The position numbers and the translations under genes were made by a program. A model generated the notes under the pieces. That model was not told where the DNA came from and did not search any database. It saw nothing but the letters and a program-made list of their open reading frames with translations. Positions 5,955 to 61,200 of a stretch of DNA of 64,000 nucleotides are shown here, in pieces (the stretch's first letter is position 1; each line of letters begins with the position of its first letter). Origin of the DNA: Archivesica marissinica (lineage: Eukaryota; Mollusca; Bivalvia; Venerida; Vesicomyidae); NCBI GenBank assembly GCA_014843695.1, contig CM026404.1, forward strand, positions 84,908,712 to 84,972,711, read 5' to 3'.

Positions 5955-6043
5955 CTTATATCTGCCTCTGCCTCATTACTGTTAGATGTGTCATAATAAA
6001 AATTATCTTTCTGTTTTGTTCTCCTCTTTCAGGTGTTAACAGA

Positions 6044-6548: not shown

Positions 6549-6591
6549 GTATGATCAACAATGTGTGTAGAGAAACACTGGAAGGTGATCA

Positions 6592-6786
6592 ATGGGATTT
6601 GAGAATAATTGATCTATGACTGGGATTTGAGAATAATTGATCTATGAATGCGATTTGAGAATAATTGATCTATGACTGGGATTTGAGAATAATTGATCTA
6701 TGACTGGGATTTGAGAATAATTGATCTATGACTGGGATTTGAGAATAATTGATCTGTGACTGGGATTTGAAAACAATTGATCTGTG
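6592..6786 (+). repeat. 28-bp tandem repeat, ~7 copies
   Basis: Unit GGGATTTGAGAATAATTGAT plus CTATGACT, starting 43 bp after the donor of MGME1 exon 1 and ending where a SINE begins. It lies in intron 1. Confidence 0.9.
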
Positions 6787-7023
6787 TCTGTCAGAATAGC
6801 GCAGTGGTTAGCGCGCTCGCTTCTCACCAATGAAACCCGGGTTCGATCCTCGGGCCGGGAAGTATGTGAGATGGTATGGTGGTCGCCAGATCGGACATGT
6901 GGGTTTTCTCCGGGTACTCCGGTTTCCTCCCGCATGAATGATCACATTTACGCTTTTATCCGCGCCAATGAGAGTGATTAATATAAGTTGTTAAAACTTA
7001 CTTCGTAAAATAAATAAAGTTTA
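6787..7023 (+). mobile_element. tRNA-derived SINE (bivalve-type central domain)
   Basis: The head has an A box-like AGCGCAGTGGTTAGCGCGCT and a B box GGTTCGATCC (6841-6850). The central conserved stretch contains GGGTTTTCTCCGGGTACTCC and GGTTTCCTCCCGCA, typical of the SINE superfamily widespread in bivalves and other metazoans (naming from memory). The tail is TTAATATAAGTTGTTAAAAC and ends in AAATAAATAAAGTTTA. Related copies lie at 9626-9857, 10964-11091 (minus), 23407-23610 and, as tail only, 57947-58022. Confidence 0.85.
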
Positions 7024-7743
7024 CAAAAAACCAATAAATCAATTGATCATGCACAAGAAATATCGATTTCAGCTGGGACTGTTTACCATAACACAACTGC
7101 CCATTGATGACACTTTGGAATGAGAATTACCACTGTGTGGCACAGAAGTTTGGGGTCTGGGCAAATGATTCCTAGCGTCCGGTTATCCCAAAATATATAG
7201 GGACATTAAGATATATACAGAAACACCAGTGACTTGACACTGCACACACATTTAGTTTAAACATATTTTATTGCTTTCGAATAACATACATATACACAAA
7301 ATGCACAATATACAACAAATGAAATGTAACGAATATTATATTAGTGAAACTGTTATAATTTATAAGAAGCAAATGGGTTGAGTCACAAGTTTTACCAACA
7401 TTAGTGATGACCCTCCCCTTAGATCAAACATATGTAACAGAATGGACAGACTTTTTCTACGATTCTTAAACACACATAAAAGACTGTATTCAATCAAATA
7501 TAAATATGACATCTATCACATGATGGAGAACATGCTACTGGTGAATGGATACCGGCACCATTTTGTCTGATCACTTCATCTGTACAGAGCCGGGCACAAA
7601 TTTTAAATTAGTCATTAGAGCACCAACTGGATTGAGGTCCCAAACGCGATTAATATAATGTTGATAGAACTTATTTTGCAAATGAAGCTAAAATAAATTG
7701 GTGTCTATCTATTGTGTCAAGTATTTTGACTATCTTATTTCAG
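7024..7743 (+). other. Rest of MGME1 intron 1
   Basis: AT-rich sequence with no coding signal. The stretch 7645-7702 (TTAATATAATGTTGATAGAA through AAAATAAATT) is a decayed SINE tail related to that of the copy at 6787. The intron ends with the acceptor TCTTATTTCAG at 7743. Confidence 0.6.
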
Positions 7744-7954
7744 AAACAATTGGGAAAGGCATTGACCTACATAAGTGTATTGAGCTACACCTGAAGGGCT
7801 GCAAGGATTTCAAGGTTAATCCTGGTAATGAAGGTCACTGGAAGAGTGTTCAGGCAGCACTAGGTGAAGTACACAATGTCAGAACCCTCGAACATGACTG
7901 TGTTCACCCGGAGATGTTCTACAGAGGAAAGTTTGACTGCATGGCACAATTACG
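7744..7954 (+). CDS. MGME1: MGME1 exon 2
   Basis: Completes codon 169 (G|AA) and encodes residues 169-238 plus two bases of 239. It contains the family's conserved GKGIDLHKCIE helix, a VQAALGEVHNVRTLE segment equivalent to the human VQHILKDVSGVRALE region, and FDC with the metal-binding Asp at residue 233. Acceptor TCTTATTTCAG|A, donor ATTACG|GTACAA. The reading frame happens to run 25 bp past the donor to a stop in the intron. Confidence 0.9.
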
Positions 7955-29744: not shown

Positions 29745-30033
29745 ATGAGTCCTTTACATTTTCTCGGACTTGTGAGCCTTGTCTATGCAGTGCAAGCTAC
29801 CAGCTACTCGGACCTACTCGCCGACCTGCAGTATCTTTACAACATAGACCAGCTGCAGAAGACAGATTATTACCAGGGTGACCCGTACAACGATAAGATA
29901 GCAGACGACTGGGACGTGACGTACCCGGATACACTCTCTGACCCCAAGGAACAACGTGACTACGGCGAGGCAGCCCTCCGAGACCAAGAGTACATGAAAC
30001 AGTTGCCCATAACCGGCTACCAGTTCATTTCAG
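29745..30033 (+). CDS. SCG5: Neuroendocrine protein 7B2 (secretogranin V), exon with start codon
   Basis: 7B2 is a secretory-granule chaperone that binds pro-prohormone convertase 2 and allows it to mature; its C-terminal peptide inhibits the enzyme. The exon encodes a signal peptide (MSPLHFLGLVSLVYAVQA, residues 1-18), then TSYSDLLADLQYLYNIDQLQ, an acidic middle with YCQGD-like DPYNDKIADDWDVTYPD, and ITGYQFIS before a phase-1 donor TTTCAG|GTTAAT at 30033. The family assignment comes mostly from the next exon (PPNPCP motif) and from the general layout: short secreted acidic protein with this motif near residue 120. It sits just downstream of a 55-bp array. The C-terminal exons are not in the window, so this gene model is partial. 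Confidence 0.78.
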
Positions 30034-31121: not shown

Positions 31122-31220
31122 GTGGCACTGGCAGACAGGAGGATCCGTCAGAAGTGAAGACAGACAAAGTACTTCCCGCATACTGTACTCCACCCAACCC
31201 CTGTCCTCAGGGATATACGG
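31122..31220 (+). CDS. SCG5: 7B2 exon with PPNPCP motif; seed of the 56-bp array
   Basis: Completes the split Gly codon and encodes GTGRQEDPSEVKTDK then VLPAYCTPPNPCPQGYT. PPNPCP followed by a Gly is the signature of 7B2 (vertebrate PPNPCPVGKT), the proline-rich segment needed for PC2 binding. The donor is ATACGG|GTAAGT at 31220/31221, phase 1, which fits the Ala or Gly that follows in other 7B2 proteins. From 31169 (codon Val113) to the donor and four intron bases, the exon is itself the first unit of the giant tandem array. The 3' exons, expected to hold the DGCLE-like and C-terminal peptide regions, are not found up to 64000. Confidence 0.82.
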
Positions 31221-34200
31221 GTAAGTACTTCCCGTATACTGTACTCCACCCAACCCCTGTCCACAGGGATATAAGGGTAAGTACTTCCAGCATACTGTAC
31301 TCCACCCAACCCCTGTCCACAGGGATATACGGGTAAGTACTTCCCGTATACTGTACTCCACCCAACCCCAGTCCACAGGGATATACGGGTAAGTACTTCC
31401 CGTATACTGTACTCCACCCAACCCCTGTCCACAGGGATATAAGGGTAAGTACTCCCCGCATACTGTACTCCACACAGCCCCTGTCCACAGGGATATAAGG
31501 ATAAGTACTTCCAGAATACTGTACTCCACCCAACCCCTGTCCACAGGGATATAAGGGTATGTACTACCCGTATACTGTACTCCACCCAACCCCTGTCCAC
31601 AGGGATATAAGGGTAAGTACTCCCCGCATACTGTACTCCACACAGCCCCTGTCCACAGGGATATAAGGATAAGTACTTCCCGCATACTGTACTCCACCCA
31701 ACCCCTGTCCACAGGGATATAAGGGTAAGTACTTCCCGCATACTGTACTCCACCCAACCCCTATCCACAGGGATATAAGGGTATGTACTACCCGCATACT
31801 GTACTCCACCCAACCCCTGTCCACAGGGATATAAGGATAAGTACTTCCCGCATAGCGTACTCCACCCACCCCCTGTCCACAGGGATATAAGGGTAAGTAC
31901 TTCCCGCATACTGTACTCCACCCAACCCCTGTCCACATGGATATAAGGATAAGTACTTCCCGCATAGCGTACTCCACCCACCCCCTGTCCACAGGGATAT
32001 AAGGGTAAGTACTTCCCGCATACTGTACTCCACCCAACCCCTGTCCACAGGGATATAAGGATAAGTACTTCCCGCATAGCGTACTCCACCCACCCCCTGT
32101 CCACAGGGATATAAAGGTATGTACTTCCTGCATACTGTACTCCACCCAACCCCTGTCCACAGGGATATAAGGGTAAGTACTTCCTGCATACTGTTCTCCA
32201 CCCAACCCCTGTCCACAGGGATATAAGGGATAGTACCTCCCGCATACTGTACTCCACCCAACCCCTGTCCACAGGGATATAAGGGTAAGTACCTCCCACA
32301 TACTGTACTCCATCCAACCCCTGTCCACAGGGTTATAATGGTAAGTAACTCCCACATACTGTACTCCACCCAACCTCTGTCCTCAGGGATATAAGGGTAA
32401 GTACTTCCCGCATACTGTACTCCACCCAACACCTGTCCACAGGGATATAAGGGTAAGTACTCCGCGCATACTGTACTCCACCCAACCCTTGTCCACAGGG
32501 ATATAAGGGTATGTACTACCCGCGTACTGTACTCCACCCAACCCCTGTCCACAGGGATATAAGGGTATGTACTACCCGCACACTGTACTCCACCCAACAC
32601 CTGTCCACAGGGATATACGGGTAAGTACTTCCCGCATACTGTACTCCACCCAACCCCTATCCACACGGATATAAGGGTATGTACTCCCCGCATACTGTAC
32701 TCCACCCAACCCCTGTCCACAGGGATATAAGGGTAAGTACTCCCCGCATACTGTACTCCTCCCAACCACTGTCCACAGGGATATAAGGGTAAATACTTCC
32801 CGCATACTGTACTCCACACAGCCCCTGTCCACAGGGATATAAGGATAAGTACTTCCCGCATACTGTACTCCACCCAACCCCTGTCCACAGGGATATAAGG
32901 GTAAGTACTCTCCGCATACTGTACTCCACCCAACCCCTGTCCACAGGGATATAAGGGTATGCACTTCCCGCATACTGTACTCCACCCAACACCTGTCCAC
33001 GTGGATATAAGGGTAATTACTTCCCGCATACTGTACTCCACCCAACCCCTGTCCACGTGGATATAAGGGTAATTACTTCCCGCATACTGTACTCCACCCA
33101 ACCCCTGTCCACGTGGATATAAGGGTAATTACTTCCCGCATACTGTACTCCACCCAACCCCTGTCCACAGGGATATAAGGATAAGTACTTCCCGCATAGC
33201 GTACTCCACCCAACCCCTGTCCACAGGGATATAAGGGTATGTACTTTCCGCATACTGTACTCCACCCAACCCCTGTCCACAGGGATATAAGGGTAAGTAC
33301 TTCCCACATATTGTACTCCACCCAACCCCTGTCCACATGGATATAAGGGTAAGTACTTCCCACATACTGTACTCCACCCAACACTTGTCCAAAGGGATAT
33401 AAGGGTAAGTACCTCCCACATACTGTACTCCACCCAACCCCTGTCCACATGGATATAAGGGTAAGTACTCCCCGCACACTGTATTCCACCCAACCCTTGT
33501 CCACATGGATATAAGGATAAGTACCTCCCACATACTGTACTCCACCCAACCCCTGTCCACAGGGATATAAGGGTAAGTACTCCCCGCATACTGTACTCCA
33601 CCAACCCCTGTCCACAGGGATATAAGGGTAAGTACTTCCCGCATACTGTACTCCACCCAACACCTGTCCACATGGATATAAGGGTAAATACTTCCCGCAT
33701 ACTGTACTCCACCCAACCCCTGTCCACAGGGATATACGGGTATGTACTTCCCGCATACTGTACTCCACCCAACCCCTGTCCACAGGGATATACGGGTAAG
33801 TACTTCCCGCATACTGTACTCCACCCAACCCCTATCCACAGGGATATAAGGGTAAGTACTTCCCGTATACTGTACTCCACCCAGCCCGTGTCCACAGGGA
33901 TGTAAGGGTATGTACTACCCGCATACTGTACTACACCCAACCCCTGTCCACAGGGATATAAGCGTATGTACTACCCGCATACTGTACTCCACCCAACCCC
34001 TGTCCACAGGGATATACGGGTATGTACTTCCCGCATACTGTACTCCACTCAACACCTGTCCACAGGGATATAAGGGTAAGTACTTCCCGCATACTGTACT
34101 CCACCCAGCCCCTATCCACAGGGATATAAGGGAAGGTACTCCCCGCATACTGTATTCCACACAGCCCCTGTCCTCAGGGATATAAGGGTAAGTACTTCCC

Positions 34201-37200
34201 GCATACTGTACTCCACACAACACCTGTCCACAGGGATATAAGGGTATGTACTACCCGCGTACTGTACTCCACCCAACCCCTGTCCACAGGGATATAAGGG
34301 TATGTACTACCCGCATACTGTACTCCACCCAACACCTGTCCACAGGGATATACGGGTAAGTACTTCCCGCATACTGTACTCCATCCAGCCCCTATCCACA
34401 GGGATATAAGGGTAGGTACTCCCCGCATACTGTATTCCACACAGCCCCTGTCCACAGGGATATAAGGATAAGTACTTCCCGCATACTGTACTCCACCCAA
34501 CCCCTGTCCACAGGGAAATAAGGGTAAGTACTTCCCGCATGCTGTACTCCACCCAACCCCTGTCCACAGGGATATAAGGGTATGTACTTCCCGCATACTG
34601 TACTCCACCCAACCCCTGTCCACAGGGATATAAGGGTATGTACTCCCCGCATACTGTACTCCACCCAACCCCTGTCCACAGGGATATAAGGGTAAGTACT
34701 CCCCGCATACTGTACTCCTCCCAACCACTGTCCACAGGGATATAATGGTAAATACTTCCCGCATACTGTACTCCACACAGCCCCTGTCCACAGGGATATA
34801 AGGATAAGTACTTCCCGCATACTGTACTCCACCCAACCCCTGTCCACAGGGATATAAGGGTAAGTACTCTCCGCATACTGTACTCCACCCAACCCCTGTC
34901 CACAGGGATATAAGGGTATGTACTTCCCGCATAGTGTACTCCACCCAACACCTGTCCACGTGGATATAAGGGTAATTACTTCCCGCATACTGTACTCCAC
35001 CCAACCCCTGTCCATATGGATATAAGGGTAATTACCTCCCGCATACTGTACTCCACCCAACCCCTGTCCACGTGGATATAAGGGTAATTACTTCCCGCAT
35101 ACTGTACTCCACCCAACCCCTGTCCACAGGGATATAAGGATAAGTACTTCCCGCATAGCGTACTCCACCCAACCCCTGTCCACAGGGATATAAGGGTATG
35201 TACTTTCCGCATACTGTACTCCACCCAACACCTGTCCACAGGGATATAAGGGTAAGTACTTCCCACATACTGTACTCCACCCAACCCCTGTCCACATGGA
35301 TATAAGGGTAAGTACTTCCCACATACTGTACTCCACCCAACACCTGTCCAAAGGGATATAAGGGTAAGTAACTCCCACATACTGTACTCCACCCAACCCC
35401 TGTCCACATGGATATAAGGGTAAGTACTCCCCGCATACTGTATTCCACCCAACCCCTGTCCACATGGATATAAGGATAAGTACCTCCCACATACTGTACT
35501 CCACCCAACCCCTGTCCACAGGGATATAAGGGTAAGTACTTCCCGCATACTGTACTCCACCCAACCCCTGTCCACAGGGATATACGGGTATGTACTTCCC
35601 GCATACTGTACTCCACACAACCCCTGTCCACAGGGATATACGGGTAAGTACTTCCCGCATACTGTACTCCACCCAACCCCTATCTACAGGGATATAAGGG
35701 TAAGTACTTCCCGTATACTGTACTCCACCCAGCCCCTGTCCACATGGATATAAGGGTATGTACTACCCGCATACTGTACTCCACCCAACCCCTGTCCACA
35801 GGGATATAAGCGTATGTACTACCCGCATACTGTACTCCACCCAACCCCTGTCCACAGGGATATACGGGTATGTACTTCCCGCATACTGTACTCCACTCAA
35901 CACCTGTCCACAGGGATATAAGGGTAAGTACTTCCCGCATACTGTACTCCACCCAGCCCCTATCCACAGGGATATAAGGGAAGGTACTCCCCGCATACTG
36001 TATTCCACACAGCCCCTGTCCACAGGGATATAAGGATAAGTACTTCCCGCATAGCGTACTCCACCCACCCCCTGTCCACAGGGATATAAGGGTAAGTACT
36101 TCCCGCATACTGTACTCCACCCAACTCCTGTCCACAGGGATATAAGGATAAGTACTTCCCGCATAGCGTACTCCACCCACCCCCTGTCCACATGGATATA
36201 AGGGTAAGTACTTCCCGCATACTTTACTCCACCCAACCCCTGTCCACAGGGATATAAGGATAAGTACTTCCCGCATAGCGTACTCCACCCACCCCCTGTC
36301 CACAGGGATATAAAGGTATGTACTTCCTGCATACTGTACTCCACCCAACCCCTGTCCACAGGGATATAAGGGTAAGTACTTCCTGCATACTGTACTCCAC
36401 CCAACCCCTGTCCACAGGGATATACGGGTAAGTACCTCCCACATACTGTACTCCACCCAGCCCCTATCCACAGGGATATAAGGGAAGGTACTGCCCGCAT
36501 ACTGTATTCCACACAGCCCCTGTCCACAGGGATATAAGGATAAGTACTTCCCGCATAGCGTACTCCACCCACCCCCTGTCCACAGGGATATAAGGGTAAG
36601 TACTTCCCGCATACTGTACTCCACCCAACCTCTGTCCACAGGGATATAAGGATAAGTACTTCCCGCATAGCGTACTCCACCCACCCCCTGTCCACAGGGA
36701 TATAAAGGTATGTACTTCCCGCATACTGTACTCCACCCAACCCCTGTCCACAGGGATATAAGGGTAAGTACTTCCTGCATACTGTACTCCACCCAACCCC
36801 TGTCCACAGGGATATAAGGGTAAGTACTTCCCACATACTGTACTCCACCCAACCCCTGTCCACAGGGATATAAGGGTAAGTACTTCCCACATACTGTACT
36901 CCACCCAACCCCTGTCCACAGGGATATAAGGGTAAGTAACTCCCACATACTGTACTCCACCCAAACTCTGTCCTCAGGGATATAAGGGTAAGTACTTCGC
37001 GCATAGTGTACTCCACCCAACACCTTTCCACAGGGATATAAGGGTAAGTACTCCCCGCATACTGTACTCCACCCAACCCCTGTCCACAGTGATATAACGG
37101 TATGTACTACCCGCATACTGTACTCCACCCAACACCTGTCTACAGGGATATACGGGTATGTACTACCCGCATACTGTACTCCACCCAACCCCTGTCCACA

Positions 37201-40200
37201 GGGATATAAGGGTATGTACTACCCGCATACTGTACTCCACCCAACACCTGTCCAAAGGGATATAAGGGTAAGTACTTTCCGCATACTGTACTCCACCCAG
37301 CCCCTATCCACAGGGATATAAGGGAAAGTACTCCCCGCATACTGTATTCCACCCAGCCCCTATCCACAGGGATATAAGGGAAAGTACTCCCCGCATAGCG
37401 TACTCCACCCACCCCCTGTCCACAGGGATATAAGGGTAAGTACTTCCCGCATACTGTACTCCACCCAACCTCTGTCCACAGGGATATAAGGATAAGTACT
37501 TCCCGCATAGCGTACTCCACCCAACCCTGTCCACAGGGATATAAGGGTAAGTACTGCCCGCATACTTTACTCCACCCAACCCCTGTCCACAGAGATATAA
37601 GGATAAGTACTTCCCGCATAGCGTACTCCATCCAGCCCCTATCCACAGGGATATAAGGGTAGGTACTCCCCGCATACTGTATTCCACACAGCCCCTGTCC
37701 ACAGGGATATAAGGATAAGTACTTCCCGCATACTGTACTCCACCCAACCCCTGTCCACAGGGAAATAAGGGTAAGTACTTCCCGCATGCTGTACTCCACC
37801 CAACCTCTGTCCACAGGGATATAAGGATAAGTACCTCCCGCATAGCGTACTCCACCCACCCCCTGTCCACAGGGATATAAGGGTAAGTACTTCCCGCATA
37901 CTTTACTCCACCCAACCCCTGTCCACAGGGATATAAGTATAAGTACTTCCCGCATAGCGTACTCCACCCACCACCTGTCCACAGGGATATAAAGGTATGT
38001 ACTTCCTGCATACTGTACTCCACCCAACCCCTGTCCACAGGGATATACGGGTAAGTACCTCCCACATACTGTACTCCGCCCAACCCCTGTGCACAGGGAT
38101 ATAAGGGTAAGTACTTCCCACATACTGTACTCCACCCAACACCTGTCTACAGGGATATAAGGGTAAGTAGCTCCCGCATACTGTACTCCACCCAACCCCT
38201 GTCCACAGGGATATAAGGGTAAGTACTTCCCGCATACTGTACTCCACCCAACCCCTGTCCACAGGGATATAAGGGTAAGTAACTCCCGCATACTGTACTC
38301 CACCCAACCCCTGTCCACAGGGATATAAGGGTATGTACTACCCGCATACTGTACTCCACCCAACACCTGTCCACAGGGATATACGGGTAAGTACTTCCCG
38401 CATACTGTACTCCACCCAACCCCTGTCCACAGGGATATAAGGGTATGTACTCCCCGCATACTGTACTCCACCCAACCCCTGTCAACAGGGATATAAGAGT
38501 AAGTACTCGCCGCATACTGAACTCCTCACAACCATTGTCCACTGGGATATAAGGATAAGTACTTCCCGCTGTACTCCACCCAACCCCTGTCCACAGGGAT
38601 ATACGGGTAAGTACTTCCCGCATACTGTACTCCACCCAACCCCTGTCCACAGGGATATAAGGGTATGTACTCCCCGCACACTTTACTCCACCCAACCCAT
38701 GTCCACAGGGATATAAGGGTATGTACTCCCCGCATACTGTACTCCACCCAACCCCTGTCCACAGGGATATAAGGGTAAGTACTCCCCGCATACTGTACTC
38801 CTCCCAACCCCTGTCCACAGGGATATAAGGGTAAGTACTTCCCGCATACTGTACTCCACCCAACCTCTGTCCACAGGGATATAAGGGTAAGTACTTCGCG
38901 CATACTTTACTCCACCCAACCCCTGTCCACAGGGATATAAGTATAAGTACTTCCAGCATAGCGTACTCCACCCACCACCTGTCCACAGGGATATAAAGGT
39001 ATGTACTTCCTGCATACTGTACTCCACCCAACCCCTGTCCACAGGGATATACGGGTAAGTACCTCCCACATACTGTACTCCACCCAACCCCTGTCCACAG
39101 GGATATAAGGGTAAGTACTTCCCACATACAGTACTCCACCCAACACCTGTCCACAGGGATATAAGGGTAAGTAGCTCCCGCATACTGTACTCCACCCAAC
39201 CCATGTCCACAGGGATAAAAGGGTAAGTACTTCCCACATACTGTACTCCACCCAACCCCTGTCCACAGGGATATAAGGGTAAGTAACTCCCACATACTGT
39301 ACTCCACCCAACCTATGTCCTCAGGGATATAAGGGTAAGTACTTCGCGCATACTGTACTCCACCCAACACCTTTCCACAGGGATATACGGGTAAGTACTA
39401 CCCGCATACTGTACTCCACCCAACCCCTGTCCACAGTGATATAAGGGTATGTACTACCCGCATACTGTACTCCACCCAACACCTGTCCACAGGGATATAC
39501 GGGTAAGTACTTCCCGCATACTGTACTCCACCCAACCCCTGTCCACAGGGATATAAGGGTATGTACTCACCGCATACTGTACTCCACACAACCCCTGTCC
39601 ACAGGGATATAAGGGTATGTACTCCCCGCATACTGTACTCCACCAACCCTGGTGTACTCCCGCATACGACTCCACCAACCCCTGTCCACAGGGATATAAG
39701 GGTAAGTACTCCCGCATACTGTACTCCACCCAACCCCGTCCACAGGGATATAAGGGTAAGTACTTCTCGCATACTGTACTCCACCCAACACCTTTCCACA
39801 GGGATATACGAGTAAGTACTCCCCGCATACTGTACTCCACCCAACCCCTGTCCACAGTGATATAAGGGTATGTACTACCTGCATACTGTACTCCACCCAA
39901 CACCTGTCCACAGGGATATACGGGAAAGTACTTCCCGCATACTGTACTCCACCCAACCCCTGTCCACAGGGATATAAGGGTATGTACTCCCCGCATACTG
40001 TACTCCACCCAACCCCTGTCCACAGGGATATAAGGGTAAGTACTCCCCGCATACTGAACTCCTCCCAACCACTGTCCACTGGGATATAAGGGTAAGTACT
40101 TCCCGCATACTGTACTCCACACATCCACTGTCCACAGGGATATAAGGATACGTACTTCCCGCATACTGTACTCCACCCAACCCCTGTCCACAGGGATATA

Positions 40201-43200
40201 AGGGTAAGTACACCCCGCATACTGTACTCCACCCAACCCCTGTCCACAGGGATATAAGGGTATGTACTTCCCGCATACTGTACTCCACCCAACCCCTGTC
40301 CACAGGGATATAAGGGTATGTACTCCCCGCATACTGTACTCCACCCAACCCCTGTCCACAGGGATATAAGGGTAAGTACTTCCCGCATACTGTACTCCTC
40401 CCAACCCCTGTCCACAGGAATATAAGGGTATGTACTCCCCGCATACTGTACTCCTCCCAACCCCTGTCCACAGGGATATAAGGGTATGTACTCCCCGCAT
40501 ACTGTACTCCACCCAACCCCTGTCCACAGGGATATAAGGGTAAGTACTCCCCGCATACTGTACTCCTCCCAACCACTGTCCACAGGGATATAAGGGTAAG
40601 TACTTCTCGCATACTGTACTCCACCCAACCCCTGTCCACGTGGATATAAGGGTAATTACTTCCCCCATACTGTACTCCACCCAACCCCTGTCCACAGGGT
40701 TATAAGGGTTAAGTACTTCCCGCATACTGTACTCCACCCAACACCTGTCCACAGGGATATAAGGGTAAATACCTCCCGCATACTGTACTCCACCCAACCC
40801 CTGTCCACAGGGATATAAGCGTATGTACTTCCCGCATACTGTACTCCACCCAACCCCTGTCCACAGGGTTATACGGCTAAGTACTTACCGCATACTGTAC
40901 TCCACCCAACCCCTGTCCACAGGGAAATAAGGGTAAGTACTTCCCGCATGCTGTACTCCACCCAACCCCTGTCCACAGGGATATAAGGGTATGTACTTCC
41001 CGCATACTGTACTCCTCCCAACCCCTGTCCACAGGGATATAAGGGTATGTACTCCCCGCATACTGTACTCCACCCAACCCCTGTCCACAGTGATATAAGG
41101 GTAAGTACTCCCCGCATACTGAACTCCTCCCAACCACTGTCCACAGAGATATAAGGGTAAGTACTTCCCGCATACTGTACTCCACACATCCCCTGTCCAC
41201 AGGGATATACGGATAAGTACTTCCCGCATACTGTACTCCACCCAACCCCTGTCCACAGGGATATAAGGGTATGTACTTCCCGCATACTGTACTCCACCCA
41301 ATCCTGTCCACAGGGATATAAAGGTATGTACTCCCCGCATGCTGTACTCCACCCAACCCCTGTCCACAGGGATATAAGGGTAAGTACTCTCCGCATACTG
41401 TACTACTCCCAACCCCTGTCCTCAGGGATATAAGGGTAAGTACTTCTCGCATACTGTACTCCACCCAACCACTGTCCACGTGGATATAAGGGTAATTACT
41501 TCCCGCATACTGTACTCCACCCAACCCCTGTCCACAGGGATATAAGGGTAAGTACTTCCCGCATACTGTACTCCACCCAACCTCTGTCCACAGGGATATA
41601 AGGGTAAGTACTTCGCGCATACTGTACTCCACCCAACACCTTTCCACAGGGATATAAGGGTAAGTACTTCCCGCAAACTGTACTACACCCAACCCCTGTC
41701 CACAGGGATATAAGGGTATGTACTACCCGCATACTGTACTCCACCCAACACCTGTCCACAGGGATATAAGGGTATGTACTACCCGCATACTGTACTCCAA
41801 CCAACACCTGTCCACAGGGATATACGGGTAAGTACTTCCCGCATACTGTACTCCATCCAGCCCCTATCCACAGGGATATAAGGGTAGGTACTCCCCGCAT
41901 ACTGTATTCCACACAGCCCATATCCACAGGGATATAAGGATAAGTACTTCCCGCATACTGTACTCCACCCAACCCCTGTCCACAGGGAAATAAGGGTAAG
42001 TACTTCCCGCATGCTGTACTCCACCCAACCTCTGTCCACAGGGATATAAGGATACGTACTCCCCGCATAGCGTACTCCACCCATCCCCTGTCCACAGGGA
42101 TATAAGGGTAAGTACTTCCCGCATACTTTACTCTACCCAACCCCTGTCCACAGGGATATAAGTATAAGTACTTCCCGCATAGCGTACTCCACCCACCCCC
42201 TGTCCACAGGGATATAAAGGTATGTACTTCCTGCATACTGTACTCCACCCAACCCCTGTCCACAGGGATATAAGGGTAAGTACTTCCTGCATACTGTACT
42301 CCACCCAACCCCTGTCCACAGGGATATACGGGTAAGTACCTCCCACATACTGTACTCCACCCAACCCCTGTCCACAGGGATATAAGGGTAAGTACTTCCC
42401 GCATACTTTACTCTACCCAACCCCTGTCCACAGGGATATAAGTATAAGTACTTCCCGCATAGCGTACTCCACCCACCCCTGTCCACAGTGATATAAGGGT
42501 ATGTACTACCCGCATACTGTACTTCACCCAACACCTGTCCACAGGGATATACGGGTAAGTACTTCCCGCATACTGTACTCCACCCAACCCCTGTCCACAG
42601 GGATATAAGGGTAAGTACTTCCCGCATACTGTATTCCATCCAGCCCCTATCCACAGGGATATAAGGGTAGGTACTCCCCGCATACTGTATTCCACACAGC
42701 CCCTGTCCACAGGGTTATAAGGATAAGTACTTCCCGCATACTGTACTCCACCCAACCTCTGTCCACAGGGAAATAAGGGTAAGTACTTCCCGCATGCTGT
42801 ACTCCACCCAATCCCTGTCCAAAGGGATATAAGGGTATGTACTTCCCGCATACTGTACTCCACCCAACCCCTGTCTACAGGGATATAAGGGTATGTACTC
42901 CCTGCATACTGTACTCCAACAAACCCCTGTCCACAGGGATATAAGAGTAAGTACTCCCCGCATACTGAACTCCTCCCAACCACTGTCCACAGGGATATAA
43001 GGGTAAGTACTTCCCGCATACTGTACTCCACACATCCCCTGTCCACAGGGATATAAGGATAAGTACTTCCCGATACTGACTCCACCCAACCCCTGTCCAC
43101 AGGGATATAAGGGTAAGTACTTCCCGCATACTGTACTCCACCCAACCCCTGTCCACAGGGATATAAGGGTATGTACTTCCCGCATACTGTACTCCACCCA

Positions 43201-46200
43201 ACCCCTGTCCACAGGGATATAAGGGTAAGTACTCCCCGCATACTGTACTCCACCCAGCCCCTATCCACAGGGATATAAGGGTAGTACTCCCCGCATACTG
43301 TACTCCACACAGCCCCTGTCCACAGGGATATAAGGATAAGTACTTCCCGCATACTGTACTCCACCCAACCCCTGTCCACAGGGAAATAAGGGTAAGTACT
43401 TCCCGCATGCTGTACTCCACCCAACCCCTGTCCACAGGGATATAAGGGTAAGTACTTCCCGCATACTGTACTCCACCCAACCCCTGTCCACAGGGATATA
43501 AGGTAAGTACTCCCGCATACTACTCTACCCAACCCTGTCCACAGGGATATAAGTATAAGTACTTCCCGCATAGCGTACTCCACCCACCCCTGTCCACAGG
43601 GATATAAGGATGTACTTCCCGCATACTGTACTCCCAACCCTGTCCACAGGGATATAAGGTAAGTACTTCCGCTACTGTACCCACCCAACCCTGTCCACAA
43701 GATATAGGGTAATACCTCCACATATGTACTCACCCAACCCCTGTCCACAGGGATATAAGGGTAAGTACTTCCCGCATACTGTACTCCACACATCCCCTGT
43801 CCATAGGGATATAAGGATAAGTACTTCCCGCATACTGTACTCCACCCAACCCCTGTCCACATGGATATAAGGGTAAGTACTTCCCGCATACTGTACTCCA
43901 CCAAACCCCTGTCCAAAGGGATATAAGGGTATGTACTTCCCGCATACTGTACTCCACCCAACCCCTGTCCACAGGGATATAAGGGTAAGTACTCCCCGCA
44001 TACTGTACTCCATCCAGCCCCTATCCACAGGGATATAAGGGTAGGTACTCCCGCATACTGTATTCCACACAGCCCCTGTCCACAGGGATATAAGGATAAG
44101 TACTTCCCGCATACTGTACTCCACCCAACCCCTGTCCACAGGGAAATAAGGGTAAGTACTTCCCGCATGCTGTACTCCACCCAACCTCTGTCCACAGGGA
44201 TATAAGGATAAGTACTTCCCGCATAGCGTACTCCACCCACCCCCTGTCCACAGGGATATAAGGGTAAGTACTTCCCGCATACTTTACTCTACCCAACCCC
44301 TGTCCACAGGGATATAAGTATAAGTACTTCCCGCATAGCGTACTCCACCCACCCCCTGTCCACAGGGATATAAAGGTATGTACTTCCTGCATACTGTACT
44401 CCACCCAACCCCTGTCCACAGGGATATAAGGGTAAGTACTTCCTGCATACTGTACTCCACCCAACCCCTGTCCACAGGGATATACGGGTAAGTACCTCCC
44501 ACATACTGTACTCCACCCAACCCCTGTCCACAGGGATATAAGGGTAAGTACTTCCCACATACTGTACTCCACCCAACACCTGTCCACAGGGATATAAGGG
44601 TAAGTAGCTCCCGCATACTGTACTCCACCCAACCCCTGTCCACAGGGATAAAAGGGTAAGTACTTCCCACATACTGTACTCCACCCAACCCCTGTCCACA
44701 GGGATATAAGGGTAAGTAACTCCCACATACTGTACTCCACCCAACCTCTGTCCACAGGGATATAAGGGTAAGTACTTCCCGCATACTGTACTCCACCCAA
44801 CCCCTGTCCACAGGGATATAAGGGTATGTACTACCCGCATACTGTACTCCACCCAACACCTGTCCACAAGGATATAAGGGTAAGTACTTCCCGCATACTG
44901 TACTCCACCCACCCTGTCCACAGGGATATAAGGTAGTATCCCGCATACGTATCCACACAGCCCCCACAAAAAAACCACACTCCACCCAACACCTGTCCAC
45001 AGGGATATACGGGTAAGTACTACCCGCATACTGTACTCCACCCAACCCCTGTCCACAGGGATATAAGGGTATGTACTACCCGCATACTGTACTCCACCCA
45101 ACACCTGTCCACAGGGATATAAGGGTAAGTACTTCCCGCATACTGTACTCCACCCAGCCCCTATCCACAGGGATATAAGGGAAAGTACTCCCCGCATACT
45201 GTATTCCACCCAGCCCCTATCCACAGGGATATAAGGGAAAGTACTCCCCGCATACCGTACTCCACCCACCCCCTGTCCACAGGGATATAAGGGTAAGTAC
45301 TTCCCGCATACTGTACTCCACCCAACCCCTGTCCACAGGGATATAAGGATAAGTACTTCCCGCATAGCGTACTCCACCCAACCCTGTCCACAGGGATATA
45401 AGGGTAAGTACTTCCCGCATACTGTACTCCACCCAACCCCTGTCCACAGGGATATAAGGATAAGTACTTCCCGCATAGCGTACTCCACCCAACCCCTATC
45501 CACAGGGATATAAGGGTAAGTACTCCCCGCATACTGTACTCCACACAGCCCCTGTCCACAGGGATATAAGGATAAGTACTTCCCGCATACTGTACTCCAC
45601 CCAACCCCTGTCCACAGGGATATAAGGGTAAGTACTTCCCGCATACTGTACTCCACCCAACCCCTGTCCACAGGGATATAAGGATAAGTACTTCCCGCAT
45701 AGCGTACTCCACCCACCCCCTGTCCACAGGGATATAAGGGTAAGTACTTCCCGCATACTGTACTCCACCCAACCCCTGTCCACAGGGATATAAGGATAAG
45801 TACTTCCCGCATACCGTACTCCACCCACCACCTGTCCACAGGGATATAAAGGTAAGTACTTCCTGCATACTGTACTCCACCCAACCCCTGTCCACAGGGA
45901 TATAAGGGTAAGTACCTCCCACATACTGTACTCCACCCAACCCCTGTCCACAGGGATATAAGGGTAAGTACTTCCCACATACTGTACTCCACCCAACACC
46001 TGTCCACAGGGATATAAGGGTAAGTACCTCCCGCATACTGTACTCCACCCAACCCCTGTCCACAGGGATATAAGGGTAAGTACTTCCCACATACTGTACT
46101 CCACCCAACCCCTGTCCACAGGGATATAAGGGTAAGTAACTCCCACATACTGTACTCCACCCAACCCCTGTCCACAGTGATATAAGGGTATGTACTACCC

Positions 46201-47617
46201 GCATACTGTACTCCACCCAACACCTGTCCACAGGGATATAAGGGTAAGTACTTCCCGCATACTGTACTCCACCCAACCCCTGTCCACAGGGATATAAGGG
46301 TATGTACTCCCCGCATACTGTACTCCACCCAACCCCTGTCAACAGGGATATAAGGGTAAGTACTTCCCGCATACTGAACTCCTCCAACCACTGTCCACTG
46401 GGATATAAGGATAAGTACTTCCCGCTGTACTCCACCCAACCCCTGTCCACAGGGATATAAGGGTAAGTACTTCCCGCATACTGTACTCCACCCAACCCCT
46501 GTCCACAGGGATATAAGGGTAAGTACTCCCCGCATACTGTACTCCACCCAACCCCTGTCCACAGGGATATAAGGGTAAGTACTCCCCGCATACCGAACTC
46601 CACCACAACCACTGTCCACAGGGATATAAGGGTAAGTACTTCCCGCATACTGTACTCCACAACCCCTGTCCACAGGGATATAAGGTAAGTACTCCCGCAT
46701 ACTGTACTCCACCAACCCCGTCCACAGGGATATAAGGGTAAGTACTCCCGCATACTGTACTCACCCAACCCCTGTCCACAGGGATATAATGATAAGTACT
46801 TCCCCATACTGTACTCCACCAAACACCTGTCAACAGGATATAAGGGTAAGTACTCCCCGCATACTGTACTCCACCCAAACCTGTCCAAAGGATAAAGGGT
46901 ATGTATCCCCCATACTGTAATCACCCAACCCCTCTCACAGTGATATAAGGATAAGTACTCCGCATACTGTACTCACCCAACACCTGTCCACAGCGATATA
47001 AGGGTAAGTACTTCCCGCATACTGTACTCCAACCAACAACTGACCACAGGGATATAAGGAAGTACTACCAGCTACCGTACCCACCCACCTGTCCACAAGT
47101 ATATAAGGGTAAGTACTTCCCGCATACTGTACTCCATCCAGCCCCTATCCACAGGGATATAAGTGTAGGTACTCCCCGCATACTGTATTCCACACAGCCC
47201 CTGTCCACAGGGATATAAGGATAAGTAATTCCCGCATACTGTACTCCACCCAACACCTGTCCACACGGAAATAAGGGTAAGTACTTCCCGCATGCTGTAC
47301 TCCACCCAACCCCTGTCCACAGGGATATAAGGGTATGTACCTCCCGCATACTGTACTCCACCCAACCCCAGTCCACAGGGATATAATGGTATGTACACCC
47401 CGCATACTGTACTCCACCCAACCCCTGTCCACATGGATATAAGGGTAAGTACTCCCCACATACTGAACTCCTCCCAACCACTGTCCACAGGGATATAAGG
47501 GTAAGTACTTCCCGCATACTGTACTCCACACATCCCCTGTCCACAGGGATATAAGGATAAGTACTTCCCACATAGCGTACACCACCCACCCCCTGTCCAC
47601 AGGGATATAAGGGAAAG
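31169..47617 (+). repeat. 56-bp array of a 7B2 exon end plus splice donor, ~290 units
   Basis: Units of 56 bp: GTACTTCCCGCATACTGTAC, TCCACCCAACCCCTGTCCAC, AGGGATATAAGGGTAA. The first unit (31169-31224) is the coding 3' end of the 7B2 exon, with CCTCAG and ATACGG where most array units have CCACAG and ATAAGG. Nearly all units keep a GT at the donor position (GTAAGT, GTATGT or ATAAGT variants) and a CAG ten bases before it. Subfamilies (CATAGCGTACTCC, GGAAATAAGG with CATGCTGTAC, GGATATACGG) recur in blocks. The array is truncated by the assembly gap. The minus strand has no stop in any frame of the unit, giving spurious frames up to 808 codons. The array occupies what should be the following 7B2 intron. 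Confidence 0.95.
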
Positions 47618-48617
47618 NNNNNNNNNNNNNNNNNNNNNNNNNNNNNNNNNNNNNNNNNNNNNNNNNNNNNNNNNNNNNNNNNNNNNNNNNNNNNNNNNNN
47701 NNNNNNNNNNNNNNNNNNNNNNNNNNNNNNNNNNNNNNNNNNNNNNNNNNNNNNNNNNNNNNNNNNNNNNNNNNNNNNNNNNNNNNNNNNNNNNNNNNNN
47801 NNNNNNNNNNNNNNNNNNNNNNNNNNNNNNNNNNNNNNNNNNNNNNNNNNNNNNNNNNNNNNNNNNNNNNNNNNNNNNNNNNNNNNNNNNNNNNNNNNNN
47901 NNNNNNNNNNNNNNNNNNNNNNNNNNNNNNNNNNNNNNNNNNNNNNNNNNNNNNNNNNNNNNNNNNNNNNNNNNNNNNNNNNNNNNNNNNNNNNNNNNNN
48001 NNNNNNNNNNNNNNNNNNNNNNNNNNNNNNNNNNNNNNNNNNNNNNNNNNNNNNNNNNNNNNNNNNNNNNNNNNNNNNNNNNNNNNNNNNNNNNNNNNNN
48101 NNNNNNNNNNNNNNNNNNNNNNNNNNNNNNNNNNNNNNNNNNNNNNNNNNNNNNNNNNNNNNNNNNNNNNNNNNNNNNNNNNNNNNNNNNNNNNNNNNNN
48201 NNNNNNNNNNNNNNNNNNNNNNNNNNNNNNNNNNNNNNNNNNNNNNNNNNNNNNNNNNNNNNNNNNNNNNNNNNNNNNNNNNNNNNNNNNNNNNNNNNNN
48301 NNNNNNNNNNNNNNNNNNNNNNNNNNNNNNNNNNNNNNNNNNNNNNNNNNNNNNNNNNNNNNNNNNNNNNNNNNNNNNNNNNNNNNNNNNNNNNNNNNNN
48401 NNNNNNNNNNNNNNNNNNNNNNNNNNNNNNNNNNNNNNNNNNNNNNNNNNNNNNNNNNNNNNNNNNNNNNNNNNNNNNNNNNNNNNNNNNNNNNNNNNNN
48501 NNNNNNNNNNNNNNNNNNNNNNNNNNNNNNNNNNNNNNNNNNNNNNNNNNNNNNNNNNNNNNNNNNNNNNNNNNNNNNNNNNNNNNNNNNNNNNNNNNNN
48601 NNNNNNNNNNNNNNNNN
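47618..48617. other. Assembly gap of 1000 N
   Basis: Exactly 1000 N, the usual placeholder for a gap of unknown size, inside or at the end of the 56-bp array. True array length and the sequence joining it to 48618 are unknown; the two flanks may not be adjacent or even correctly oriented. Confidence 0.98.
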
Positions 48618-48661
48618 CAACAAAATGATTGAACAAAATCAACCTGGTTACACCTAAAGTA

Positions 48662-48788
48662 AGATTAAATGAAGGCGAAAAAACACACACATATAGTGAA
48701 GAACGGCGAAGAGCTTGGTAGGCAAGTATCGACAGAAAGGAAACTCCGACTGCAGCGTCTAGGATATGCTCAGATCATTTCATTACTG
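48662..48788 (+). pseudogene. THAP-domain exon with in-frame stop
   Basis: The frame reads RLNEGEKTHTYSEERRRAW, stop (TAG 48719-48721), then ASIDRKETPTAASRICSDHF and ITG before a donor CTG|GTATG at 48788. RRRAW, a W-x3-I spacing and the SxxICSDHF element match the middle and end of the THAP zinc-finger DNA-binding domain (the final CxxH). The N-terminal Cys pair is not visible, being upstream or in the gap. THAP domains occur in transcription factors and P-element-like transposases; which one this was cannot be told. Confidence 0.65.
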
Positions 48789-49165
48789 GTATGTTTTCTT
48801 CTCTTTTACACGTTTTAGTATTTATTTCTCACATTATGACCTAGATATATATAAGACCTCTACATAATTATTTCGATCTGTTATTTGAAAAATGCATTGA
48901 TAGTAAAATTTCACATTTTCAAGTCTAAATATTTGGATTACCCCACCCACTTCCGCTGGCTCTTGCCATTAGAGTGAAAACAAGCTAGCAATCAATAGTG
49001 TTTTGAGCAATAGGTTGCATTATGGGAAATTGGTAATGGGGCGTAACTGTCGTACACAAAATCAGAATGATTTGCGTCCCTTTACCGGTAATATTTACTA
49101 GACATTTTGTATATTCGGCGTTGACGCATTACACCAGGCTTTCTGGTGACATAAATTTCACAGCG
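48789..49165. other. Unique stretch after the THAP exon
   Basis: No gene seen. Contains GCATTATGGGAAATTG (49016 on), reminiscent of a short promoter element, followed 140 bp later by a possible start codon. Confidence 0.3.
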
Positions 49166-49329: not shown

Positions 49330-51250
49330 GTTGCATGGGAGTGAGCCCGGATCCAATGGCACAGACTACACATAAGCCCAACTTTCTACCTTGAGGTTGG
49401 GATTGGATACCCAAAATACCCTCTCCATATCACTATGTAATTTCAGATACATAAGTCGAAATTCTACCTGTTGAACAGCCCCTAATACCCTAATCAGGGA
49501 ATGTGACACCACTGACTACCCATATACAGGGACCCACAAGCAATACACACATAACCCATACACCAATAAGTTTCTACCTTGGGGATGGATACCCAAAATA
49601 TGGGCTTCTCTAATACCACTATTTGCAGTAAAAATATATATGAAACAATCATCCGACATTTATTCACCAGCCCACTGGGCCTTAAATGAGGAATGTGACA
49701 CCACTGACTACCCATAGACAGTGGCCCACAATCAATACACACATAACCCATACACCAATAAGTTTCTACCTTGGGGATAGATACCCAAAATATGGGCTCT
49801 TCCATATTACTATGTAATTTCAGAAATAAAAGTCGAAATTTGAACTTGATGAACGGCCCCTGGGCCCATAAATAGGGAATGTGACACCAGTGACTACCAA
49901 TAGGCAGGGACCCACAACCAATACAAACATAACCCATACACCAATAAGTTTCTACCTTGGGGATGGATACCCAAAATAAGGGCTCTTTCATATTACTATG
50001 TAATTTCATCAATAAAAATTTGAACTTGATGAACGGACCCTGGGCCCTCTAAATAGGGAATGTGACACCAGTGACTACCCATAGGCAGGGACCCACAACC
50101 AAACAAACATAACCCATACACCAATAAGTTTCTACTTTGGGGATGGATACCCAAAATATGGGCTTCTCTAATACCACTATTTGCTGTAAAAATATATATG
50201 AAACAATCATCCGACATTTATTCACCAGCCCACTGGGTCTTAAATAAGGAATGTGACACCATTGACTACCCATAGACAGTGGCCCACAATCAATACACAC
50301 ATAATACATACACCAATAAGTTTCTACCTTGGGGATGGATACCCAAAATATGGGCTTCTTTAATGCCACTATTTGCATTAAAATATAATTATATGAAACA
50401 AATAGTCGATATTTATTCGACGGCCTACTGGGCCTTAAGTAAGGAATGTGACACCACTTGCTATGCACGGGCATGAGCCCGAATCAAATTGGCACACAAT
50501 ACATATAAGCCTAACTTTCTACCTTGGGGTTGGATACCCAATGTATGGGCTCTTCCATATTACTATTTCATTTCAGAAATAAAAGTCGAAATTTGAACTT
50601 GATGAATGGCCCCCGGGCCCCTAAATAGGGAATGTGACACCAGTGACTACCCATAGCCAGGAACCCATAAGCAATACTCACATAATACATACAACAATAG
50701 GTTTCTACCTTGGGGATGGATACCCAAAATAAGGGCTCTTCCATATGCTATGTAATTTCAGAAATAAAAGTCAAAATTTGAACTTGATGAACGGCTCCGG
50801 GGCCCTAAATAGGGAATGTGACACCAGTGACTATGCATATATGTGGACCCACAACTAATACACACATAACATATACAAGGATAAGTTTGTACCTTGGGGA
50901 TGGATACCCAAAATATGGGCTATTCTAATACCACTATTTGCAGTAAAAATATTGAAATATATATGAAACAAATAGCCGATATTTATTCAACGGCCCACTT
51001 GGCCTTAAATAAGGAATGTGATACCACTGACTATGCATGAGTGCGAGCCTGGATCCAATAGGCACACAATACATATACGCTCTACTTTCTACCTATGGGC
51101 TCTTCCATATCATTATGTAATTTCAGAAATAAAAGTCGAAATTCGACCTTGATGAACGGACCCTGGAGCCCTAACTAGGGAATGTGACACCAGTGACTAT
51201 GCATAGACGTGGGCCCATAACCAATTCACACATAACACACACAAGGATAG
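49330..51250 (-). repeat. 186-bp repeat family array, minus orientation, ~10 copies
   Basis: Inverse copies of the unit described at 58240-63650: recurrent TGGGTATCCATCCCCAAGGT, TGGTGTATGGGTTATG, AGTCACTGGTGTCACATTCC on the minus strand. Units are more diverged than in the downstream array and vary in length. The two arrays flank 51.25-58.24 kb as inverted repeats. Confidence 0.9.
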
Positions 51251-55639: not shown

Positions 55640-56047
55640 TGTGTGTTACGTTTATTTATCGTCGCTACCGGTTGCCCATATGAGCGACGCCTCCTGAAGA
55701 GATTAGTCATTTTAGAATGTTGGAGGATAGTGCAATGAAACAGGCAGATACCCATTCCAGAGTCTCCTCTGGTTCTTTTACGTGCACGATGTAAAGCACC
55801 GACACGAGACCTCGTTTTAAAGTCCCATATGAAAGACTGTTAATTTTATTAGGGTCAGACGGGGGATCGAACATGCGACCCCTAATTGTAGTTGGTTGTT
55901 GTTAGTTGTGGTTTCCATCGTCGTCCTCGTTGCTGCGGTTGTTAATATTCTGAAAGACTGTTAATTTTATTATGGTCAGACGGGGATCGAACCTGCGACC
56001 CCTGGATTACCAGTCCAGCGTGTTACCACTGGACTACAGATCCGTCT
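55640..56047 (-). mobile_element. tRNA-derived SINE, longest copy of its family (minus)
   Basis: On the minus strand: ATCTGTAGTCCAGTGGTAAC starts the head near 56043, CTGGACTGGTAATCCAG forms an anticodon-like stem-loop (GGT anticodon if read as a tRNA), B box GGTTCGATCCC at about 55983-55993. The body contains TAACAGTCTTTCA twice because an internal ~100-bp segment is duplicated (55860-55995), then CCAGAGGAGACTCTGGAATG and GGCGTCGCTCATATGGGCAA. The acceptor stem does not pair, so it is not a functional tRNA. Related pieces: 8020, 14202, 17033 and 57755. Confidence 0.8.
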
Positions 56048-58239: not shown

Positions 58240-61200
58240 TCATTTCAGGTTAGTTATATTGTACTGTGACATTGGGAAGCGCATTGATCGGATAGCCAAA
58301 TATGTATCACCATAGTGTACGTGGGGATCGGCTCACAGAGATTAAAAATCTAGAAGTGTGTACAAAATTCATTCCCAAAGTAGAACGTTGGGCTGGTATA
58401 TATTACGTGTGCAGCGGTTGTGGGTCCACCTCCTGTGCATAGATGTGGTTATTACCACATATGTCGATCAATAATATTGTCATTTTTCTGAAATTGCATA
58501 GTAATATGAAACAATCCCTTAAATTGGGTATCCAACTCTAATGTACAAAGTTGGGCTTATGGTCTACTGGATACGGGCTCACACTAATGCATAGTCAGTG
58601 GTGTCACATTCCCTATTTAATGCCACTGGGCCGTTCATCAATGTCGAATTACGACTATTATTTCAGAAATTACATAGTGATATGGAAGAGCCAATACATT
58701 GGGTAGCCAAATCCAAGGTATAAAAATGGGCGTATGTGTAATGTGTGTCTGTGGATTCGGGCTTATATCCATGTATAGTCAATGGTGTCACATTCCCTAA
58801 TTAAGGCCCCAGGGGCCGTTCATCAAGGTCGAATGTCGACTTTTATTTCTGAAATTACATAGTGATATGGAAGAACCCAGAAATTGGGTATCCATCCCCA
58901 AGCTATGAGGTGTTGCGTATGTGTAGTGTGTGCCTATTTGACCCGGGCTCATACCCATGTATAGTCAGTTTTGTCACATTCCATAAATAAGCCCCAGTGG
59001 GCTGGTGAATAATTGTCGACTGTTTGTTTCATATATATATATTTACTGCAAATAGTGGCATTAGAGAAGCCCATATTATGGGTATCCATCCCCAAGGTAG
59101 AAACTTTTCCGTGTATGGTTTATGTTTGTATTAGTTGTGGGTCCATGTATATGCATCGTCACTGGTGTCACATTCCCTATTTAGGGGCACAGGGGCCGTT
59201 CACCAAGGTCGAATTTCGACGTTTATTTGTAAAATTACATAGTGATATGGACGAGCCCATAAAATGGGTATCCATCCCCAAGGTAGAAACTGATCCGTGT
59301 ATGGGTTATGTTTACATTGGTTGTGGGTCCCTGTCTATGAGTAGTCACTGGTGTTACATTCCCTATTTAGGGGCCCAGGGGCCGTTCATCAAGTTCAATT
59401 TCGACTTTTATTATTGAAATTACATAGTAATATGGAAGAGCCCATATTTTGGGTATCCATCCCCAAGGTAGAAACTTATTGGTGTATGTATTATGTGTGT
59501 ATTGATTTTTGGTTCCTAACTATGGGTAGTCACTGGTGTCACATTCCCTATTTAGGGGCCCAGTGGCAGTTCATCAAGTTCAAATTTCTACTTTTATTTC
59601 TGAAATTACATAGTAATATGGAAGAGCCCATATTTTGGGTATCCATCCCCAAGGTAGAATCTTTGGTGTATGGGTTATGTTTGTATTGGATCTCTGCCTA
59701 TGTGTAGTCACGGGTGTCACATTCCCTATTTAGGGCCCAGGGGCCGTTCATCAAGTTCAAATTTGTTTTATTTCTGAAATTACATAGTAATATAGAGAAG
59801 CCCATATTTTGGGTATCCATCCCCAAGGTAGAAACTTATTGGTGTATGGTTTATGTTTGTATTGGTTGTGGGTCCCTGCCTATGGGTAGTCACTGGTGTC
59901 ACATTCCTTATTTAAGGCCCAGTGGGCTGGTGAATAAATGTCGGATGATTGTTTCATATATATTTTTACTGCAAATAGTGGTCTTAGAGAAGCCCATATT
60001 TTGGGTATCCATCCCCAAGGTAGAAACTTATTGGTGTATGGGTTATGTTTGTATTGGTTGTAGTTCCCTGACTATGGGTAGTTACTGGTGTCACATTCCC
60101 TATTTAGGGACCCAGGGGCCGTTCATCAAGTTCAAATTTCGACTTTTATTTCTGAAATTACATAGTAATATGGAAGAGCCCATATTTTGGGTATCCATCC
60201 CCAAGGTAGAAACTTATTGGTGTATGGTTTATGTTTGTATTGGTTGTGGGTCCCTGCCTATGGGTAGTCACTGGTGTCACATTCCTTATTTAAGGCCCAG
60301 TGGGTTGGTGAATAAATGTCGGCTGATTGTTTCATATATATTTTTACTGCAAATAGTGGTCTTAGAGAAGCCCATAGTTTGGGTATCCATCCCCAAGGTA
60401 GAAACTTATTGGTGTATGGGTTATGTTTGTATTGGTTGTAGTTCCCTGACTATGGGTAGTTACTGGTGTCACATTCCCTATTTAGGGACCCAGGGGCCGT
60501 TCATCAAGTTCAAATTTCGACTTTTATTTCTGAAATTACATAGTAATATGGAAGAGCCCATATTTTGGGTATCCATCCCCAAGGTAGAAACTTATTGGTG
60601 TATGGGTTATGTTTGTATTGGTTGTAGGTCCCTGCCTATGTGTAGTCACTGGTGTCACATTCCCTATTTAGGGACCCAGGGGCCGTTCATCAAGTTCAAA
60701 TTTCGACTTTTATTTCTGAAATTACATAGTAATATGGAAGAGCCCATATTTTGGGTATCCATCCCCAAGGTAGAAACTTATTGGTGTATGATTTATGTTT
60801 GTATTAGTTGTGGGTCCCTGCCTATGGGTAGTCACTGGTGTCACATTCCTTATTTAAGGCCCAGTGGGCTGGTGAATAAATGTCGGATGATTGTTTCATA
60901 TATATTTTTACTGCAAATAGTGGTCTTAGAGAAGCCCATATTTTGGGTATCCATCCCCAAGGTAGAAACCTATTGGTGTATGGGTTATGTTTGTATTGGT
61001 TGTAGGTCCCTGACTATGGGTAGTCACTGGTGTCACATTCCCTATTTAGGGACCCAGGGGCCGTTCATCAAGTTCAAATTTCGACTTTTATTTCTGAAAT
61101 TACATAGTAATATGGAAGAGCCCATATTTTGGGTATCCATCCCCAAGGTAGAAACTTATTGGTGTATGGGTTATGTTTGTATTGGCTGTAGGTCCCTGAC

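Follow-up and report, generated by a model that had tools for sequence, protein, structure and literature searches.

A large tandem array of exon ends and splice donors in the 7B2 gene of Archivesica marissinica

The window analysed here is a stretch of 64,000 nucleotides of Archivesica marissinica (C19:84908712-84972711, in a genome of 1.54 Gb), and it carries a 56-bp tandem array that lies directly behind exon 2 of the gene for 7B2, a protein conserved across animals (Table 1). Each unit of the array repeats the end of this exon together with the 5' splice site that follows it. The array is very probably a selectively neutral intronic minisatellite, which has grown from the exon 2/intron 2 boundary of the single-copy 7B2 gene. 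It adds a very large new example to a repeat type that has been described before, and is not a new class.

Table 1. Features of the 7B2 gene and its array. Positions without a scaffold name are those of the window.
Feature	Position	Strand	Basis or remark
7B2 exon 1, coding part	29745..30033	+	Open frame, exon end, database matches
7B2 exon 2	31122..31220 (99 nt)	+	Splice sites, translation, Pfam; genome-wide Pfam match at C19:84939817-84939930
Authentic 5' splice site GTAAGT of intron 2	31221..31226	+	Copied within array units
56-bp tandem array, ~296 units, each exon-2 end plus donor	31167..47617	+	Tandem Repeats Finder, cyclic alignment, exon-stuttering screen
Assembly gap, 1000 N; array runs into it	47618..48617	.	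Sequence right of gap probably not the true neighbour
Exon-3 array piece	C19:88359470-88351613	-	Same unit, same orientation relative to the gene; 3.4 Mb off, inverted
Right-hand part of gene (array piece and exon 3)	C19:88351275-88359470	-	Genome search
7B2 exon 3	C19:88351495-88351275 (221 nt, behind acceptor)	-	Reads GGDNCVSVFENSPENNRRILEHQDCACDAEHMLSCP...

The exon in front of the array is exon 2 of 7B2. It is preceded by the acceptor ttttttaaag|GTGGC and followed by the donor G|GTAAGT, and its translation is GTGRQEDPSEVKTDKVLPAYCTPPNPCPQGYT. Exon 1 supplies a start codon and a signal-peptide-like N-terminus, runs to ...GYQFISG and ends in phase 1 at the donor G|GTTAAT; 12 of the 13 database matches aligned this exon in whole or in part. 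When compared with the Pfam family Secretogranin_V, exon 2 alone scored E=3e-10, and the joined translation of exons 1 and 2 scored E=2.7e-18. The sequence-only reading of this stretch, which had called the exon from its letters and its 7B2 identity from family knowledge, was thus borne out on both points by the splice sites, the open translation and the Pfam match. Moreover, exon 2 of a protein of another source (P0012) was 81% identical to the window exon over 37 aa. Exon 3 was found outside the window and scored E=1.8e-7 alone and E=4.2e-31 when exons 1-3 were joined. Exon 2 ends in phase 1, its G together with exon 3 gives GGDNCVSVFENSPENN..., and the frames of exons 1-3 are open and in phase. 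Within the window, a motif search for exon 3 gave only one unrelated minus-strand match, and all of the 40 matches listed for the human 7B2 sequence fell in exon 2 or in the array.

The whole 1.54 Gb was covered by a genome-wide Pfam search, in which 150 of the 608 first candidates were scored and 315 matches were obtained. Among the matches listed, there was one place for exon 2 and one for exon 3, and all others were array units, which were restricted to the window array, the exon-3 piece and an unplaced contig (C2197). An intact 7B2 locus elsewhere, which the sequence-only reading had regarded as incompatible with its account, did not appear among them.

Tandem Repeats Finder (TRF) placed the window array at 31167-47617 with a period of 56 and 294.1 copies, and a cyclic alignment resolved it into 296 units plus 3 nt, among which 203 were distinct and the exon's own unit was found once. 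The unit consists of the last 54 nt of exon 2 (31167-31220) and the start of the donor; the repeated sequence continues across the exon border and through the donor, so that GTAAGT lies inside the unit as had been proposed. The earlier estimate of about 290 units from 31169 to 47617 was close in number. However, the unit starts at 31167 rather than 31169, because AAGTA is common to the exon and the donor, and position 47617 is the edge of the gap and not the end of the array. The length of 16 kb given earlier is therefore only that of the assembled left part, since more of the array was found in the exon-3 piece and in C2197. Among the clean units of both scaffold pieces (n=386), 4.4% of sites were off the consensus and the pairwise identity was 92%. 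Units with small indels clustered at 39617-39704, 43505-43711, 44882-44972 and 46577-47060, the rest of the array being clean; these clusters resemble long reads left unpolished more than a biological feature.

The screen published for exon stuttering in chicken (blastn-short, at least 20 nt and at least 42.1 bits) was then applied on the plus strand only. Exon 2 matched intron 2 at 288 places in the window piece and at 139 in the exon-3 piece. At the same minimum of 20 nt, no match was obtained for exon 1 (with a query 6 nt short) or exon 3, and exon 2 was unmatched in intron 1, upstream of exon 1, downstream of exon 3 and in shuffled targets. All 288 confident intron matches in the window began at exon position 45 or later (from 31166), and the part of exon 2 upstream of the unit is accordingly unrepeated, as the sequence-only reading had it. 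At the other end, the matches stopped at position 96 of the 99-nt exon in 239 of 288 cases and reached position 98 or 99 in only 27, because the array consensus differs from the exon at position 97.

The composition of the array (GC content approximately 0.51) was higher than that of the 2-kb bins outside it that were free of N (approximately 0.34-0.47). In 20 stretches of 10 kb sampled on C19, tandem repeats with a period of at least 10 made up 51.6% of 196,176 bases, and a single array occupied one entire stretch. As this scaffold is full of minisatellites, a long array is unexceptional there; the origin from an exon plus its donor is the striking part.

The exon copy is the founder of the array. 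Its codon ACG encodes the T of GYT, which is also present in P0012, while the array consensus reads AAG at this codon; therefore, the copy in the exon was taken as the original one, in agreement with the order proposed earlier. The motif AAGTA lies at the left edge of the repeat (AAA GTA in the exon) and again in the donor GTAAGTA; the first duplication may have arisen through these 5 bp of homology. A 56-bp tandem duplication with both breakpoints in AAGTA, one in the exonic AAAGTA and the other in the donor GTAAGTA, would have copied the exon end along with the donor. The copy nearest to the exon would have retained a working donor, and for this reason the added copies would have been silent in the intron. 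Unequal exchange and block duplication would then have multiplied the array until intron 2 was filled. Growth through block exchange is supported by the identity between six-unit blocks, which rose to 0.991 at lags of 35 and 39 units and did not exceed 0.979 in 20 shuffles of the unit order. A higher-order repeat of three units, for which TRF gave a period of 168, was considered and rejected; the identity between units was nearly flat by lag (best 0.917, mean 0.910).

The array adjoins exon 2 on one side and exon 3 on the other, which agrees with the claim that it occupies the intron following exon 2. Read in the direction of the gene, the exon-3 piece begins at an N gap and contains 140 units, of which the first and the last are partial; its final array match lies 116 nt before exon 3. 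We infer from this arrangement that one 7B2 gene, with an intron 2 that is nearly all array, was divided by a scaffolding error. The gene would be split in the scaffold because the array defeated scaffolding; once the array had broken the scaffold, exon 3 would have been placed, along with the array's right part, inverted and 3.4 Mb away. If the two pieces belong together, the array in intron 2 should be at least 24.3 kb long (16,451 + 7,858). C2197 is an unplaced contig of 31,945 bp, in which the 11,945 bases inspected were array from end to end and the listed Pfam matches ran along the remainder; its end was 98-99% identical to the window array over approximately 1.2 kb. Perhaps the array exceeds 56 kb, namely if this contig is its missing middle.

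The assembly might also be correct, in which case an inversion between the two array pieces would truly break the gene and 7B2 would be split or dead. The scaffold does show the pieces in inverted orientation, separated by 3.4 Mb. However, both of them stop exactly at N gaps, the frames of exons 1-3 have remained open and in phase, and no further locus of this conserved gene was present among the matches listed genome-wide. A real inversion is thus unlikely, and a misjoined but whole gene is preferred.

The splice signals of the units were examined for signs of a maintained function. GT was kept in 234 of the 296 window units, the authentic site counted, and in 128 of the 139 units of the exon-3 piece. 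GTAAGT was present in 149 and 85 of these units and GTATGT in 62 and 35, respectively, so that one or the other was kept in 331 of the 435 units across the two C19 pieces; AG together with either hexamer was found in 196 of 296 and 119 of 139 units. These numbers, including the high retention of GT in the exon-3 piece, might suggest that the array is a maintained splicing device, in which the donors serve as decoys, U1-binding sites or poison exons and so control the level of full-length 7B2. The predicted outcome of their use would fit such a role. If used, each of the 188 GGGTA[AT]GT donors downstream in the window part would introduce a stop codon ahead of the end of exon 3, and so would 952 of the 958 conceivable pseudoexons with lengths of 20-400 nt. 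Nevertheless, the eight splice columns were no better conserved than the rest of the unit in the 386 clean units (mean 0.930 vs 0.956 for all columns), and random sets of eight columns were equal or better in 90% of the draws. The G of GT was among the most variable columns, being kept at 0.834 in the window piece, and intact donors counted in blocks of 30 units showed no gradient along that piece. Furthermore, similar repeats in amphioxus are reported, in the portions of the papers used here, as not disturbing splicing (PMC3087553, PMC3902484). A maintained splicing device is therefore very unlikely. The sequence-only reading had suggested that the array could alter splicing, transcript length or prohormone processing; the conservation of the splice columns speaks against a maintained role in splicing. 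Since the splice signals of the units are not specially conserved, the array looks neutral, and its downstream donors are best read, from their predicted products, as tolerated decoys. As these donors would truncate the protein, normal 7B2 needs the first donor, at which splicing most likely still occurs. That the array encodes protein in the sense frame was also rejected; the variability by exon codon position was 0.030/0.046/0.040 in the clean units, with no excess at third positions.

It is hardly credible that the array arose elsewhere and was then inserted, or that its antisense strand encodes a repetitive protein: antisense open frames do reach 823 aa, but the unit is the exon itself, none of the matches listed (lower bounds) fell outside the two C19 pieces and the one unplaced contig, and with a period of 56 bp each antisense frame reads successive units in all three phases. 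For the same reason, that the unit is the exon, we rejected an unrelated origin of the intronic minisatellite.

Several points nevertheless weigh against a neutral minisatellite within one misassembled gene. The join from exon 2 through the array to exon 3 is deduced across the assembly gap. An overlap between the end of the window array and the exon-3 piece was tried and rejected, as the last 600 bp before the gap matched that piece at 85-86% (five longest matches). C2197 could represent either the middle that is missing or a second haplotype. At its right edge, the array ends partway through the exonic portion of its last unit (GGATATAC|AGCTTGG), so that the old start of the intron past the donor is not seen, and the simplest duplication model leaves this edge unexplained. 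The C-terminal part of 7B2 beyond exon 3 was found neither by motif nor with the human sequence, and a motif search of the 28-kb contig for further 7B2 exons past exon 3 gave none. Finally, GT was retained more often in the exon-3 piece than in the window piece, for which neutrality offers no special reason beyond the greater homogeneity of the former. A perfect 9-bp inverted repeat (GGTGCGAAC/GTTCGCACC, with an 8-nt loop, at L012:1581-1606) lies where the array ends on the right, shortly ahead of exon 3.

Minisatellites of comparable structure in amphioxus, termed mirages, were reportedly first described in Canestro 2002. According to the excerpts of two papers drawn on here (PMC3087553, PMC3902484), they occur in Adh3, the globin genes BflGb6 and BflGb9 and TnC, with PGBD5 likened to them, and consist of tandem repeats over an exon-intron boundary with AG/GT splice signals. 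The units of BflGb6 are 81-100% identical; the globin case has units of 150-160 bp, 3 in one haplotype and 6 in the other, the Adh3 units measure 10-72 bp, and both reverse transcription PCR and instability are reported (PMC3087553, PMC3902484). In chicken, exon stuttering on the dot chromosomes (Hron et al. 2026, PMC12954441) is presented, in the parts of that paper drawn on, as direct tandem copies in which a lateral portion of a coding exon is repeated along with its splice site. These copies are confined to the adjacent intron, the source lies at the exon border (within approximately 1 base of it in more than 90% of the chicken cases, which is not definitional), and orthologous introns carry differing clusters. 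Clusters of 1-44 copies (median 4) spanning 112-23,555 bp were recorded on GC-rich chromosomes, and the authors also mention gerbil genes, with data not shown (PMC12954441). The sequence-only reading had taken the array for an undescribed class; these two bodies of work show that the class was already known.

Judged by these excerpts, the 7B2 array resembles the mirages in that its repeat spans an exon-intron boundary and its units carry AG/GT signals, but differs in having approximately 435 units on the two scaffold pieces and in filling its intron. It resembles exon stuttering in that copies of the exon end and its splice site are restricted to the next intron. However, the same screen gave 427 matches on the two pieces, the array measures 16.5 kb within the window alone and, should the two pieces belong together, no less than 24.3 kb, and its setting is not GC-rich, a feature that is associated with exon stuttering without being part of the screen. 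In potato RdRp, a tandem duplication across an exon-intron boundary copied the splice signals and made a new intron, as described in the part of the source consulted (PMC4974935). The 7B2 duplication likewise crosses such a boundary and copies splice signals, whereas it seems to have enlarged an intron that was already present. An old intron is favoured by the match of P0012 to exon 2, which stops at the same GYTG in this one relative.

A second array from the same exon was suggested by one protein. When a 224-aa antisense frame of the array was searched against 5.8 billion proteins, only one of 2547 candidates passed (P0015, E=7e-5), a predicted open reading frame of 135 aa on a 167-kb contig. 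Its best match in the window was at the edge of exon and array (31392-31129) with 63 bits, compared with 17.7-23.5 bits in 20 shuffles, and 198 of its 199 window matches at E<=10 were within the array or exon 2. The back-translation of P0015 is compatible with YCTPPNPCP at five places, each with no more than one mismatch, while 300 shuffles yielded at most two sites with up to three mismatches. The joint of donor and exon GTAAGTTGATGTCAAGAC (GTAAGT into VDVKT), which was picked after inspecting the reading frame, fits P0015 at five exact steps of 77 nt with 2, 1, 3, 2 and 0 mismatches. This step was the best among those of 70-85 nt, with 8 mismatches in 90 positions vs at least 28 in 300 shuffles, and the full GTAAGT was permitted at two of the five joints. 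P0015 is thus probably not a real gene but a false prediction across an array of 77-bp units, in which the same exon end and donor are repeated from another left breakpoint. The 56-bp and 77-bp arrays could share descent. A protein search with P0015 returned only itself at E<=10 (10 candidates). Viral contigs, covered in 11 stretches, gave no relative.

We speculated, as a rather doubtful extension, that the 5' splice site itself is a place from which satellites repeatedly start to grow, as would have happened at 7B2 exon 2 at least twice (56 bp and 77 bp), and that mirages and exon stuttering belong to one animal-wide process of intron growth. A right breakpoint in the donor and a joint that restores GTAAGT would make the duplication invisible to selection, and growth would then be limitless.

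Other features of the window lie apart from 7B2. Exons resembling those of MGME1 (mitochondrial genome maintenance exonuclease 1) were observed at 5915-6548 and 7742-7953, where the matches to solved structures were weak (E 0.05 and 0.007 at best), and a 28-bp array at 6593-6790 begins approximately 44 bp past the apparent donor at 6549. Directly after the gap, at 48618-48790, lies a frame with an internal stop that we take to resemble part of a THAP domain. A 186-bp satellite family is present twice in opposite orientations (49399-51033 and 58592-63629), the consensus units being reverse complements by eye, and ARAGORN predicted a tRNA-Thr-like gene on the minus strand at 55972-56043.

Through the 7B2 array, a rare phenomenon published for amphioxus and chicken is now seen in a further genome and in a neuroendocrine gene, with a copy number far above that reported by the chicken screen. 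The array suggests that GC-rich sequence is not required for such repeats, and it accounts for the scaffold break and the split gene in the assembly. With one exon, one donor and hundreds of near-identical decoy donors, it is a clean test bed; if the transcripts are normal, they would show how strong the preference for the first donor is. The repeat type shows a route by which introns can grow out of exons.

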